The translations under genes were made by a program, and so were the position numbers. This document shows positions 6,421-19,875 of a DNA stretch of 32,037 nucleotides, in pieces. Source of the stretch: a virus; IMG/VR virus record IMGVR_UViG_3300021961_000370, positions 1 to 32,037 of that record; one strand, written 5' to 3'. A model generated the notes under the pieces. That model was not told the DNA's origin, searched no databases, and was given only the letters and a program-made list of their open reading frames with translations. The stretch's first letter is position 1, and each line of letters starts with the position of its first letter.

Positions 6421-9267
6421 ATGGCATCAACAGACAGAATTTTTGTAAGTCCAGGTGTATTCACATCAGAAAAGGACTTAACATTTGTTACGAGACAAGT
6501 AGGTGTTACAACGTTGGGGTTGTTGGGGGAAACTCCTAAAGGACCAGCGTTTGAACCTGTATTTATCTCTAACTACGATGAGTTTATTAGTTACTTTGGT
6601 GGACTTAACACTGAAAAGTTTAAGGGAACAGGATACCAAAAGTACGAACTAAACTATATCGCCAAATCATTTTTAACACAAACCAATCAACTATATGTTA
6701 GTAGAATTTTAGGTTATTCGGGGTATAAAGCAGGTGATGCATGGGCAATCACATTAGATTCTGCAGAAGATCCAGATACTGTAGCGAGTGCATCCACTTA
6801 TACAGGACCTCTTTTAACTTATACCGCTGAAACAACTGGTAACCCTGTCGCTTTAAGTTGGTCAGATTCTAATTTAGAAGCACTTTATGATGATGGACAA
6901 ATTAGTTCATTATTTACGACATTAGGGTTATTAGATACTGGATCAACAATTTCGCTAACATCACCAAAATATGTTAAAACAGGATGTAACTTTAGTGGTG
7001 GTACTTTTGATATGGAGATTACTGAAACAGGGACTACAGGAAGTTACGTAACTGGTGCCACTACAGGTACTGTTGTTAGTTATACTGCAACTTGTTTAAC
7101 AGACATCGATGGTAGTGTTATTGCGACATTGAGATCTAGAGGTACTTACAACTCAGATGAGGAGTTGGTATTCGAAGTTACAGGTAACTCTACAACAATG
7201 AGTAATACTACAAATATAAAAAGTAATGCATTGGCATCATTTACTATTGGTGGTACTGCAACAAATGGTAGTACATTTAGTTATGATGTATCTATGGATA
7301 GAACTAAAAAGAATTATTTACCTAGAGTATTTGGTTCTTCTGCACAAGATAAAGAAACTGAATTATGGGTTGAGGAAATCTATGAAAATGTATTGGTAGA
7401 CTTAATCGCTAAAAATCAAGTTAGAGGTTTAGATATTGACTTCAACACTATTAGTGGAGATTCGTCTAATACAGGTAACTTAAATAACTATCAAGAACAA
7501 TGGAAATCTGCGGCATCACCTTGGGTTCTTTCAGAACTAATGGGTACAGGAACTGGTGCAACGTTACAAAGACTATTTAGATTCATTACAATATCTGATG
7601 GTAACGCAGCGAATGAAGACGTTAAATTCTCAATCGTTAATATCAGACCCGATAATAGAACATTTGACTTATTAGTTAGAAGTTTTAATGATACTGACGC
7701 TAACCCTAATGTAGTAGAGAAATTCTCAAACATTACTTTAGATGTAAACGCAACAGGATATATCGGTAGAAAGATTGGTACATCTAACGGAGAATATCCA
7801 TTGAGAAGTAGATATATTATGGTTGAGTTGTATGATGAAAACGATCCTAGTTTAGCAAGTAGAGTACCTGCAGGGTTTGAAGGTGTATTGAATAGAACTT
7901 ATATTGGAAGTAGAAATTCTCTACCACCAAAAATCGAATATAAAACAGAATATCCATCATCATTGACTACCGCACAATTAAGAAGAACTTATTTAGGTTT
8001 AAATTCTGAAATTGGTGTGGATCAAGACTTCTTTGACTACAAAGGTAAAAACGCAGTTAATAACGGTGTATTTACAGGGAAAACAGATGGTTTCCACTTA
8101 GACGTAAACGCAAATGGTGCGGAAGTCAATTTAGGAGATGATAGTTATATTCCTACACTACAAGTTGGTGTGTCAGCGTTTACAAATGAAGCTAGTTTGG
8201 TAGGTGGACCTTATGAGAAACTATCAGCAAGAAAATTCACATTCACATCATTCGGTGGATGGGACGGATGGGATGTATATAGATTACAAAGAACTAATAC
8301 TGACAATTATACTAAAACAGGTTCTAAAGGTTCTATAGGATTAACAAATGGAACATTCTCAACGTTTGTGACAACTGAAGGTGATCAAGGGATTACTTCT
8401 GACTACTACGCATACTTAAATGGTATTTACACTTTTAACAACCCTGAAGCGGTTAACATTAACGTATTCGCAACACCAGGTATTGACATTAGAGATAATA
8501 TTGGTTTAGTAAACAACGCTGTTGATATGGTAGAGGTTGATAGAGCGGATTCACTTTATGTTATCACAACACCTGATACAGATGCAGATGGACAAGTACT
8601 TACACCAGACGAAGCGGTAGATATTATAGAAGATTCGGCAATCGATTCTAACTACTCCGCTACATACTGGCCGTGGTTACAGATGAATGATACAGAAAAT
8701 AACAGATATGTATGGTTACCACCTACATTAGAAGTTATGAGAAACATCGCACTTACCGATAATGTGGCGTTCCCTTGGTTCGCAGCGGCAGGTTTAAATA
8801 GAGGTACGACAAACGCAATAAAAGCGAGAGTTAAACTTAAGTTAGATGATAGAGATGACTTATACGAAGGAAGAATTAACCCAATGGCGACATTCTCAGA
8901 TGTAGGAGTTGTAATCTTCGGTAATAAAACACTACAAGTTAAAGAAACTGCACTTAACAGAATCAATGTTAGAAGATTGTTGTTACAAGCGAGAAAACTT
9001 ATTTCAGCGGTGTCAATCAGATTGTTATTCGAACAAAATGATGATGTTGTAAGAAATCAATTCTTAAGTTTGGTTAACCCAATTTTGGATAACATTAGAA
9101 AAGAGAGAGGTTTAACTGACTTTAGAGTTGTATTGGATGACACACCAGAGTCTATTGATAGAAACGAACTTAACGGTAGAATCTTTATTAAACCAACGAG
9201 ATCATTAGAATTCATTTCGATCGAGTTCAACATCACTAACACAGGAGCATCGTTTGATGATATTTAA
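6421..9267 (+). CDS. Contractile tail sheath protein (gp18-like)
   Basis: 948 aa. The N-terminus 'FVSPGVFTSEKDLTFVTRQV', then 'TTLGLLGETPKGPAFEPVFI' and 'YDEFISYFGG', is the classic opening of myovirus sheath subunits. The C-terminal domain has the conserved sheath end: 'NVRRLLLQARKLISAVSIRL', 'FEQNDDVVRNQFLSLVNPIL' and 'IFIKPTRSLEFISIEFNITN'. It polymerises around the tail tube and contracts to drive the tube into the host. T4 gp18 is 659 aa; the excess here lies largely in a Thr/Ser/Gly-rich beta region at about residues 110-290, probably an outward-facing insertion, before the conserved 'NYLPRVFG'. The codons show more C-ending Phe, Asn and Tyr codons than the neighbouring unknown genes, consistent with high expression. 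No Shine-Dalgarno precedes the ATG; a hairpin terminator follows. Confidence 0.95.
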   Translation: MASTDRIFVSPGVFTSEKDLTFVTRQVGVTTLGLLGETPKGPAFEPVFISNYDEFISYFGGLNTEKFKGTGYQKYELNYIAKSFLTQTNQLYVSRILGYSGYKAGDAWAITLDSAEDPDTVASASTYTGPLLTYTAETTGNPVALSWSDSNLEALYDDGQISSLFTTLGLLDTGSTISLTSPKYVKTGCNFSGGTFDMEITETGTTGSYVTGATTGTVVSYTATCLTDIDGSVIATLRSRGTYNSDEELVFEVTGNSTTMSNTTNIKSNALASFTIGGTATNGSTFSYDVSMDRTKKNYLPRVFGSSAQDKETELWVEEIYENVLVDLIAKNQVRGLDIDFNTISGDSSNTGNLNNYQEQWKSAASPWVLSELMGTGTGATLQRLFRFITISDGNAANEDVKFSIVNIRPDNRTFDLLVRSFNDTDANPNVVEKFSNITLDVNATGYIGRKIGTSNGEYPLRSRYIMVELYDENDPSLASRVPAGFEGVLNRTYIGSRNSLPPKIEYKTEYPSSLTTAQLRRTYLGLNSEIGVDQDFFDYKGKNAVNNGVFTGKTDGFHLDVNANGAEVNLGDDSYIPTLQVGVSAFTNEASLVGGPYEKLSARKFTFTSFGGWDGWDVYRLQRTNTDNYTKTGSKGSIGLTNGTFSTFVTTEGDQGITSDYYAYLNGIYTFNNPEAVNINVFATPGIDIRDNIGLVNNAVDMVEVDRADSLYVITTPDTDADGQVLTPDEAVDIIEDSAIDSNYSATYWPWLQMNDTENNRYVWLPPTLEVMRNIALTDNVAFPWFAAAGLNRGTTNAIKARVKLKLDDRDDLYEGRINPMATFSDVGVVIFGNKTLQVKETALNRINVRRLLLQARKLISAVSIRLLFEQNDDVVRNQFLSLVNPILDNIRKERGLTDFRVVLDDTPESIDRNELNGRIFIKPTRSLEFISIEFNITNTGASFDDI

Positions 9268-11500: not shown

Positions 11501-11533
11501 AAATCCTTATCATTAATTTGATGAGGATTTTTT
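11501..11533 (+). terminator. Intrinsic terminator after the acidic-protein gene
   Basis: AAATCCTTATCA pairs with TGATGAGGATTT (one G-U pair) around a 6-nt loop and runs into a T tract. The position, about 30 nt after the stop, supports it. A TTG start at 11518 in the next frame falls inside this hairpin and was not used. Confidence 0.75.
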
Positions 11534-11544
11534 GTTATTTAGAT

Positions 11545-11552
11545 ATATTTAT
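11545..11552 (+). promoter_or_regulatory. ATATTTAT element before the PG-binding gene
   Basis: ATATTTAT followed by 'TATATATATAAAAAAA', 12 nt after the preceding terminator and 22 nt before the ATG at 11575. The terminator-then-element arrangement marks a new transcription unit covering 11575-15666. Confidence 0.45.
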
Positions 11553-11574
11553 TATATATATAAAAAAATTTATT

Positions 11575-12861
11575 ATGAAAAGAATTAATAACTTAAATGA
11601 AGAAATAAAAAGGATTAAATCTTTATTTACTGAAGAAAGGATGTTCGGTAATTTAGTGGAACAGGAAGAAGTTTTATCTGAGGGAAATGTTCTTAAATTG
11701 GGATCCAAAGGTGAAGACGTTGGTGCATTACAAAACCTTTTAAAAATAGAACCTGTTGACAATAAATTCGGTAATATTACTAAAGGTAAAGTAGAAGAAT
11801 TCCAAAAAAACAACGGACTTAAGGTAGATGGTGTTGTTGGTGAGGAAACTCTAAAAGCGATAATTAAAAAATTTACTAATAAGAATGAATCTGTTGATTT
11901 AAATGAAGATGTCTCTGACGATATCAATAAACTTAGTAAAACAATTGTAAATCAAGAGGTTTTAGATGATAATGGAAATCCATTACCTACTTCTGATTGG
12001 GTAAAGTCATTAGATATGTTTAAAAACGCCCCAACTTTAGATACTAAAAATCAACCTGAACAAATTAAAGGGGAGTTAGAGAGTGAACCAGTAAAAAACA
12101 AACCTGAAGAAATAAAAATAAATAACCAAAACGATAAAAAAAGTGGGGATAGTGAAGGTGAAAACGAAAAGCAGGATGATGGTTCATTAAATAAAAAAAG
12201 AGGTGGTACAGGTACAGAAGCCAAAGGACAAGGAATGGATCAAAAAGATTTTAATAAATCTAGATCCGACATAGAATCTGAAAGAGGTGGGTTAAGTGTC
12301 TTAGGTATGAAACTAGATAGAGTTGACATTATTAATAATAAAGCGGTTTGTAGAAGACTTTTGAATAGTATGATTAAATTGTCTAAAAATGGTAAAACGA
12401 GACGAGAGTTAGAAAATTATGAGTTTGATGATAAGGGTGGTAATGCTCATACAGGTAAAGAATATATTGAGCGTATTGAGTGGTGTTTAAGTAATTTTTA
12501 TAATGTTTATGAAAAAGAAGGGTGGTCAGGTAAAATTGATACTTTATTACAAACATGGAAAATACCTATGCCTGAGAAAGTTTCTAATGCGGTTCAAGGA
12601 GAAGTTTATAAAATAATTAGTGATGATAATAATCATATAGGTTGGATTAAAAAAGTTAAGAATAATAAATTTAGGTTTAAAGGGAAGGGTGTTGCACCAT
12701 TATTAGATAATACAAAAGGTAAAGCTGGTAAATTTAACCCTAAATATGAAAAAAATGTTTATAAGGCAATAAATGTTAATCCTAATGAATATGATATTGT
12801 GATACAAAAATCTAAAGATCAAGAAAAGGATTCGGGAATATTTGTTTTATCCCCAAAATAA
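11575..12861 (+). CDS. Peptidoglycan-binding-domain protein with a capsid-targeting-like leader
   Basis: 428 aa from the ATG at 11575; the frame is open to 11518, but that extension lies in a terminator and precedes the leader. The leader has 'EEIKRIKSLFTEER' and 'GNLVEQ', with cleavage predicted after E29 (L-V-E). Residues 39-98 are a typical PG_binding_1 domain: 'LKLGSKGEDVGALQNLL', 'DNKFGNITKGKVEEFQKNNG', 'KVDGVVGEETLKAI'. Residues 150-240 are a low-complexity, charged Lys/Glu/Asn linker. The C-terminal 190 residues form an unrecognised domain ('AVCRRLLNSMIKLSKNGKTR', 'RIEWCLSNFYNVYEKEGW'). No muramidase or peptidase catalytic motif was seen, so cell-wall binding rather than cutting is the supported reading. 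The next gene starts 3 nt after its stop, so the two are co-expressed. Confidence 0.75.
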   Translation: MKRINNLNEEIKRIKSLFTEERMFGNLVEQEEVLSEGNVLKLGSKGEDVGALQNLLKIEPVDNKFGNITKGKVEEFQKNNGLKVDGVVGEETLKAIIKKFTNKNESVDLNEDVSDDINKLSKTIVNQEVLDDNGNPLPTSDWVKSLDMFKNAPTLDTKNQPEQIKGELESEPVKNKPEEIKINNQNDKKSGDSEGENEKQDDGSLNKKRGGTGTEAKGQGMDQKDFNKSRSDIESERGGLSVLGMKLDRVDIINNKAVCRRLLNSMIKLSKNGKTRRELENYEFDDKGGNAHTGKEYIERIEWCLSNFYNVYEKEGWSGKIDTLLQTWKIPMPEKVSNAVQGEVYKIISDDNNHIGWIKKVKNNKFRFKGKGVAPLLDNTKGKAGKFNPKYEKNVYKAINVNPNEYDIVIQKSKDQEKDSGIFVLSPK

Positions 12862-18965: not shown

Positions 18966-19745
18966 ATGGACAATTTGTCAAATATGGATCCTAATTATAT
19001 ACCGGAAGATTTAAGAACTCCTTACGATATAATAGAATTACCATCTCAAGGACTTTTATATAAAAATAAAATTTCCAAAGTAAAGGTTGAGTATTTAACT
19101 GCGATGGATGAAAACATTTTAAGTTCTCCTAATTTAAGTGCGAATCCAGATGAAATGATTTCTACACTTTTAAAAAGAAAAGTAAAAGATTTAAATATAG
19201 ATATAGATGATTTACTAATTGGTGATAGAATTGCATTACTAATATTTTTAAGGGTAACTGGATTAGGAGAAAGTTATAAACAAATTGTTTATGATCCTGA
19301 AAGTAATGATTTTGTTGAGGGTGATATTGATTTAAGTTCTTTAAAACAGAAAAAATTACTTATTAAACCAGATGAAAATGGTGAATTTGACTATATTTTA
19401 CCCAACTCAAAGAAAAAAATTAAATTTAAATTTCTCACTTCTAAAGATGATAAAGAAATAGATATTGCCGATGAACTACAGATGAGACGTAGTGTTGAGA
19501 AAGTTTCTAATAAGATAACACTTAGATTAGAAAAAGCGATTACAGAAATAGACGGAGAACGAGATAAAATTAAAATATCTAACATTATTAAAAAATTACC
19601 TATATTAGATTCAAGAAGTTTGAGATCTTATATAGAAAAGAATGAACCAGGAATTGATTTTAATACAAATGCTAGGATCCATGGGGGAGGATCCGTAAAT
19701 TGCTTTCTTAGACTCGGAAAGAATTTTTTATGGCCTGAACTCTAA
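18966..19745 (+). CDS. Baseplate hub protein, gp26-like (T4_baseplate family)
   Basis: 259 aa. 'TPYDIIELPSQGLLYKNK' followed by 'VKVEYLTAMDENILSSPNL' is the hallmark opening of the T4 gp26-like baseplate family: 'LPSxGxxY' then 'lTxxxExxL'. Also present are 'LLIGDRIALLIFLRVTGLG', 'FKFLTSKDDKEIDIADEL' and the C-terminal 'LRLGKNFLWPEL', equivalent to the family's 'FFWP'. T4 gp26 (208 aa) helps assemble the central hub; this copy is somewhat longer. It lacks a capsid-targeting leader and breaks up the run of leader-bearing genes. A second ORF overlaps its last 47 bases in another frame (19699-19875), recalling the T4 order 26-51. No Shine-Dalgarno precedes its ATG. Confidence 0.75.
   Translation: MDNLSNMDPNYIPEDLRTPYDIIELPSQGLLYKNKISKVKVEYLTAMDENILSSPNLSANPDEMISTLLKRKVKDLNIDIDDLLIGDRIALLIFLRVTGLGESYKQIVYDPESNDFVEGDIDLSSLKQKKLLIKPDENGEFDYILPNSKKKIKFKFLTSKDDKEIDIADELQMRRSVEKVSNKITLRLEKAITEIDGERDKIKISNIIKKLPILDSRSLRSYIEKNEPGIDFNTNARIHGGGSVNCFLRLGKNFLWPEL
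19675..19694 (+). promoter_or_regulatory. GGATCC/GGATCC hairpin carrying a GGGGGAGG ribosome-binding-like sequence
   Basis: Two palindromic GGATCC copies at 19675-19680 and 19689-19694 can pair as a 6-bp stem with an 8-nt loop of ATGGGGGA. The loop and right arm spell GGGGGAGG, the best Shine-Dalgarno match in the window, 8 nt before an AUU codon at 19699. Since other genes lack such a site, it may drive the overlapping ORF and be occluded or exposed by the hairpin. It also encodes 'HGGGS' of the gp26-like protein, so some constraint may be at the protein level. Confidence 0.45.
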
Positions 19746-19875
19746 TTATTTATCTTATTTACATAAAGAAATTGCATTTTTAGTGAAAAATGGATACTCT
19801 TATTCAGATATTATGATAATGCCTACTTACTCTAGAAAAATATTTATAAATATGTTAGTACCTAAAACTGAATAA
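19699..19875 (+). CDS. Overlapping 58-codon hub-accessory ORF (gp51-like?), AUU start proposed
   Basis: After the gp26-like stop, the +1 frame encodes 'NSNYLSYLHKEIAFLVKNGY' and then 'SYSDIMIMPTYSRKIFINML', ending 'VPKTE'. This resembles small T4-like hub proteins of the plan 'lHkeIf.L...g.fsy.di..MP...R.f...l', placed after gene 26 as T4 gene 51 is. T4 gp51 itself is much longer, so the name is tentative. The frame has no ATG before the conserved block. It is open from 19699, where AUU follows GGGGGAGG by 8 nt, inside the gp26-like gene. I recall that T4 gene 26 itself uses an internal AUU start for gp26*, so a rare AUU start is not without precedent. The alternatives are a +1 frameshift near 'CTC TAA' giving a fusion, although that site is not slippery, CUG at 19735, or a sequence error. 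Confidence 0.5.
   Translation: MAFLDSERIFYGLNSNYLSYLHKEIAFLVKNGYSYSDIMIMPTYSRKIFINMLVPKTE

Follow-up and report, generated by a model that had tools for sequence, protein, structure and literature searches.

The gp26-like gene of this window and the reading frame that overlaps its 3′ end together encode, in all likelihood, two forms of the tail assembly chaperone in a myovirus of the T4 superfamily, namely a short protein, G, and a +1-frameshifted fusion, GT. The window, by which we mean the whole stretch of 32,037 bases that was analyzed (30% GC; the single metagenomic virus record IMGVR_UViG_3300021961_000370), is a part of such a myovirus, one whose sheath is of the T4 type. GT is very probably made by +1 ribosomal frameshifting, which is very probably programmed. 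We infer that most ribosomes would read G to its stop at 19743, and that a minority would slip by +1 at UUU_U (19725-19728); here, the peptidyl-tRNA-Phe would leave UUU and re-pair with the UUU one base on, with UAU as the next codon, to yield a GT fusion of ∼302 aa (...LGKNF-YGLNSNYLSYL...) bearing the T domain. If the two forms behave like lambda gpG/gpGT, the tape-measure protein would be covered by many copies of G and few of GT, and T would bring in the tail-tube subunits.

A preliminary description of this DNA had reported a 58-codon ORF in the +1 frame, overlapping the gp26-like gene and lacking an ATG, and its coordinates were confirmed: the frame is open between a TAA at 19696-19698 and a stop whose last base is 19875, the overlap of the ORF (19699-19875) with the gp26-like ORF is 47 nt, and no ATG lies 5′ of the conserved block. 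The other landmarks were likewise found where they had been placed, namely (i) the GGGGGAGG motif at 19683-19690, with an ATT 8 nt further on at 19699-19701, and (ii) two GGATCC copies, at 19675-19680 and 19689-19694, that can pair as a 6-bp stem with an 8-nt loop. The absence of a Shine-Dalgarno-like motif from the other starts also holds, for 21 of the 22 main ORFs of the window. The ordered, helical T domain begins at ∼19738.

Table 1. Features of the G/T locus in the window.
Feature	Coordinates	Strand	Basis
G: gp26-like short tail assembly chaperone, 259 aa	18966..19745	+	PF12322/phrog_150 relative; gp26-family profile match P=2.3e-9; AF2 pLDDT 86.6
T: +1-frame C-terminal extension, 48 codons after the slip plus stop	19729..19875	+	own-sequence relatives; independent G loci; similarity to gp51 C-terminus; AF2 model
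Proposed +1 slip site, 0-frame UUU_UUA	19725..19730	+	UUU then U/C at c1 or c2 in 94/94 loci; putative position
0-frame TGG CCT (Trp/Arg-Pro), conserved, 3′ of the slip site	19731..19736	+	c3 = TGG or CGN in 93/94; c4 = CCN in 91/94
RNA hairpin GGATCC / loop ATGGGGGA / GGATCC	19675..19694	+	31-50 nt upstream of the slip codon; pairing in 15 relatives
TAA, 0-frame stop of the short form	19743..19745	+	read from the sequence
ATT, start proposed in the preliminary description	19699..19701	+	codon varies among relatives

The two parts of the fusion were assigned by profile comparisons. Window G scores 23.2 bits against PF12322 (Pfam T4_baseplate), which is below the cut-off of 24.5, whereas its relative in locus L005 scores 69.5 bits. 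A direct profile-profile comparison of G with the gp51 family gave nothing useful, and the link between the two runs via gp26, which is matched by G (Table 1) as well as by gp51 without its tail (P=3.9e-14). For T, which has no model in NCBIfam or Pfam, the matches are to the gp51 C-terminus (P=1.9e-5) and to the cyanophage T (P=1.8e-7), and the latter in turn matches the gp51 C-terminus (P=1.7e-9). Further, PF12322 spans only residues 1-201 of gp51, and the remainder is exactly the T part. By these comparisons, homology links G to gp26 and T to the last 48 residues of T4 gp51. The block that the preliminary description had called conserved-looking and hub-type is indeed conserved, but it is the T domain with which a gp51-like tail assembly chaperone ends.

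Structures of G and T, predicted separately with AF2, were also compared with known folds. The T model has a pLDDT of >90 for most of ORF residues 21-50, its confident domain lies only after the overlap, and its top BFVD match is a gp51, at a weak E value of 0.56. In alignments with PDB chains, the G model ranked YqbN first (3KLU, Z 6.0) and the tail assembly chaperone of HK97 second (2OB9, Z 5.8), with the next at 3.2; all being below a Z of 8, these predicted-fold alignments are in line with a chaperone but no more than suggestive. A Foldseek search of the PDB with the same model gave no match at E<0.001. In the relatives, the gene order is tube, G/T, and a large gene, with the gene before G/T being a tail tube in L005, L006, L020, and L037. 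In Flavobacterium phage immuto, an annotated tape measure lies downstream, preceded by a short CDS that belongs to T. In the window, the gene that follows T cannot be recognized as a tape measure. T4 needs gp51 to assemble, and the particle does not contain it (PMC3004832).

An alignment of relatives, which the preliminary description had suggested, revealed a conserved +1 arrangement. The +1 ORF (T) sequence alone retrieved 28 relatives. In a blind test, a single G motif near the N-terminus served as the query, T being left out, and found 80 gp26-like loci; T lies in +1 across the G stop in 79 of these, and the 80th (L056) meets its contig edge within T. A short protein with an overlapping-frame extension at its 3′ end is therefore the gene architecture in 79/80 loci, and by these counts the conservation of the +1 ORF is far beyond chance. 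The same arrangement occurs in two cultured phages, immuto and Microcystis phage Mel-JY01. Across loci, the G/T overlap is 23-155 nt long, and beyond the junction the +1 frame stays open for at least 48 codons, versus a median of 12 before the -1 frame closes. The zero-frame end of G is also real, since G can be aligned with its relatives in the zero frame to the last residues, up to the stop.

To locate the shift, the four zero-frame junction codons c1-c4 (TTT TTA TGG CCT in the window) were compared in 94 loci. In 94/94, UUU stands at c1 or c2 with U or C as the next base; because of this invariant UUU_Y, tRNA-Phe can always re-pair one base on, at UUU or UUC. Moreover, c1 is TTT in 93/94 loci versus ∼76 expected, in a count uncorrected for relatedness. 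Thus, as read from the alignment, a P-site codon able to re-pair in +1 is conserved beyond what the protein needs. In subgroup B, the larger subgroup, with Arg at c3, this Arg codon is CGN in 61/61 loci (uncorrected for relatedness), whereas Arg in the genes of the subgroup is CGN in 17% and AGA/AGG in 83% of cases; CGC and CGG, the rarest two Arg codons at 4% together, nevertheless fill 34 of the 61 c3 positions (likewise uncorrected). In the subgroup of the window itself, the A-site codon after the slip would be UUA, UUC, or CUA, which are not rare, and no rare codon was seen. Phe at c5 is always TTC, versus TTT in 81% of upstream Phe codons (again uncorrected for relatedness), which is expected because the +1 frame reads Ser there. 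The preliminary description had named a +1 frameshift fusion as the main alternative to its favored idea, and this is the reading that the evidence supports; as it noted, CTC TAA is not a slip site, and the most likely place is instead TTT TTA at 19725-19730, inside the overlap.

A programmed shift of another kind, either by -2 or elsewhere in the overlap (e.g. on the CCU codon at c4), is an unlikely variant. Either event would reach the same frame, c4 is CCU in 83/94 loci, and a -2 shift is possible on TTTTTT. However, the T run, which is 6-7 long at most loci (six T at 19724-19729 in the window), is interrupted in L015 (TTTCTA), L037 and L087 (TTTCTT), and L070 (TTCTTT), where -2 re-pairing fails and the T domain still lies in +1. 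Elsewhere c4 is CCC, CCA, TCT, TTT, or GTT, several of which are poor at +1 re-pairing, and a slip at c4 was set aside, this codon being not always re-pairable.

Termination-coupled re-initiation at a nonstandard codon, which would make T a separate protein, is improbable. Annotations of cyanophages and KVP40-like phages do show a small ORF on its own behind gp26, and nearby ATGs could there serve as a start for T alone. Among the 94 loci of the +1 clade, however, 15 contain none of seven start codons (ATG, GTG, TTG, CTG, ATT, ATC, and ATA) within the region open to a T start; TTG is present there in many loci, but no start codon is conserved in position. Re-initiation would also leave the codon bias at c1-c3 unexplained. 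A change of frame already in the mRNA, through RNA polymerase slippage on the T run, has still less in its favor: runs of the length seen at most loci, including the six T of the window, would allow it, but the four interrupted runs keep T in +1, and the rare c3 codon would serve nothing.

The idea favored in the preliminary description, a separate small protein started from the AUU at 19699 behind the hairpin-borne GGGGGAGG, is hardly tenable. The spacing of the ATT from this motif speaks for such a start, as does T4 gene 26′ (L039:3803-4090, minus strand), which is annotated from ATT. Yet the codon is ATA, ACA, or GTT in close relatives with the same hairpin, ATT being confined to the window and L018/L019, Shine-Dalgarno sites are mostly absent from the genes of this genome, and residues 1-13 of the AUU-started product are of low confidence in the model, the ordered domain coming later. 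The T4 parallel drawn there is correct as a fact, in that gene 26′ shares the gene family and a non-AUG start, but it fails as a parallel: gene 26′ lies in-frame within gene 26 and does not make the T domain, which T4 puts in gene 51. Finally, that a sequencing or assembly error or gene decay split one gene over two frames has a negligible probability, for although the window is a single metagenomic record, error is refuted by relatives with the same arrangement (dozens of independent contigs and two cultured-phage records), and the zero-frame C-terminus is conserved up to the stop.

Returning to the +1 ribosomal shift, we examined the RNA around the junction. The GGATCC hairpin proposed in the preliminary description stands, at a new place in the argument: it ends ∼31 nt 5′ of the slip codon, 94.4% of cells in its 6 bp are paired in 15 relatives (versus at most 61% for slid versions), and both sides have changed in four of the six pairs. 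Judged by these compensatory changes, the stem has been conserved as RNA structure, with covariation between its two sides. Subgroup B has a different six-pair stem, positions -48 to -43 with -10 to -5, in which all six pairs form in 53/61 sequences, versus a mean of at most 3.7 of 6 pairs for slid versions; RNAalifold, unprompted, chose part of this stem. Its key synonymous pair (-46/-7) varies among C-G, A-U, and G-C in only two to three independent events, and in tree terms the covariation is suggestive. RNAalifold found no conserved downstream structure in subgroup B between +9 and +90.

Both the rare codons and the upstream structures may stimulate the shift, and a stem that refolds behind the ribosome could favor forward slipping. 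It is conceivable, if doubtful, that the upstream stem represents a new kind of +1 stimulator, which would refold behind the ribosome, pull the message forward, replace the Shine-Dalgarno stimulator in hosts that hardly use such pairing (e.g. Flavobacteria), and cooperate with a rare A-site Arg codon. Separately, two Gly codons of subgroup B are biased: the one at -39 (e.g. L026:3961-3963) is GGA in 55/60 loci versus ∼33% in the same genes, giving AGGAG, and the one at -9 (e.g. L026:3991-3993) is GGG in 54/61 versus ∼16%. The loop of the subgroup B stem carries a Shine-Dalgarno-like string.

The gp26/gp51 pair as chaperones of T4-like phages and -1 shifts in some of these phages are already in the literature. 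Vladimirov, Gautam, and Davidson are said to have identified gp26/gp51 as the T4-like tail assembly chaperones in 2022, under a title that reportedly argues for a non-frameshift mechanism in T4-like phages. In T4, gp51 itself comprises a gp26-like part plus T, with G corresponding to gp26 and T to the gp51 C-terminus; T4 uses a short and a long gene for this, whereas the window has one gene and an overlapping +1 frame. A short gene plus a long fused gene is described for some T4-like phages in one paper that cites this work (PMC10885494), and poly-T -1 sites in T4-like chaperone genes in another (PMC12846349). In agreement with these papers, we found T in the -1 frame at a U_UUU_UU[C/U] heptamer in S-PM2, S-SSM7, S-RIM8, PC-Liy1, nt-1, DLP6, phiM19, pf16, and SRB7757. 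These chaperones of cyanophages, KVP40-like, and other T4-like phages share with the window G followed by T at the gp26 stop and a homologous T, but differ in the heptamer and its -1 frame, the window type using +1 at UUU_Y. The -1 junctions at the gp26 stop are those of L120, L121, L122, and L128-L133.

More distant systems share parts of this design. Lambda G/GT, the work of Xu, Hendrix, and Duda, reportedly uses a -1 shift; it resembles the locus in arrangement, with a short and a frameshift-extended chaperone between the tail tube and the tape measure. The +1 site of influenza PA-X is UUU CGU. As in PA-X and prfB, a P-site codon would re-pair in +1 before a slow next codon, and subgroup B, with UUU_CGN, is like PA-X; these genes are unrelated to G/T. 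The prfB site is CUU_U, or UUU_U in a few species (PMC5009743), and works with a stop codon and, three bases before the site, a stimulator resembling a Shine-Dalgarno sequence; the window-type site showed neither. Atkins and colleagues, in their review, describe the G/GT frameshift as conserved among long-tailed phages "except T4", +1 shifts as rare in tail chaperones, and archaeal HSTV-2 as very likely to have one (PMC5009743); besides HSTV-2, we found no other +1 tail chaperone named there. T4 is thus the long-tailed phage that the review names as lacking the frameshift (PMC5009743), and the +1 branch belongs to the same superfamily. In the literature covered, which took in Vladimirov et al. 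2022 only through papers citing it, we found no description of the conserved +1 version, the slip-site rule, the rare codon, or the upstream structure.

One chaperone would accordingly have three modes of expression in one virus group, namely a +1 shift, a -1 heptamer, and two genes (T4), with a large environmental branch of the T4 superfamily keeping one gene and the +1 shift. The junction would be a rare example of a natural +1 site that has been conserved, and the viruses carrying it probably have bacterial hosts that make little use of Shine-Dalgarno sequences. The reading also corrects annotations of cultured phages in which T is cut or mis-started. The immuto CDS immuto35A_232 (L037:6857-6967; 36 aa, hypothetical) covers the end of T from an internal ATG onward and should be joined to the gp26-like gene via the +1 shift. 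The Mel-JY01 protein WWT39326.1 (L038:4734-4970) corresponds to T, given there as a gene of its own with a TTG start that lies within G. For gp51 of S-RIM8, the start has been annotated at an internal ATG, so that the beginning of the conserved domain is missing.

Elsewhere in the window, positions 6421-9267 encode the tail sheath (948 aa), with recognized sheath domains only in its C-terminal third, and a 447-aa ORF with a TTG start (11518-12861) has an endolysin-like stretch at residues 55-134.
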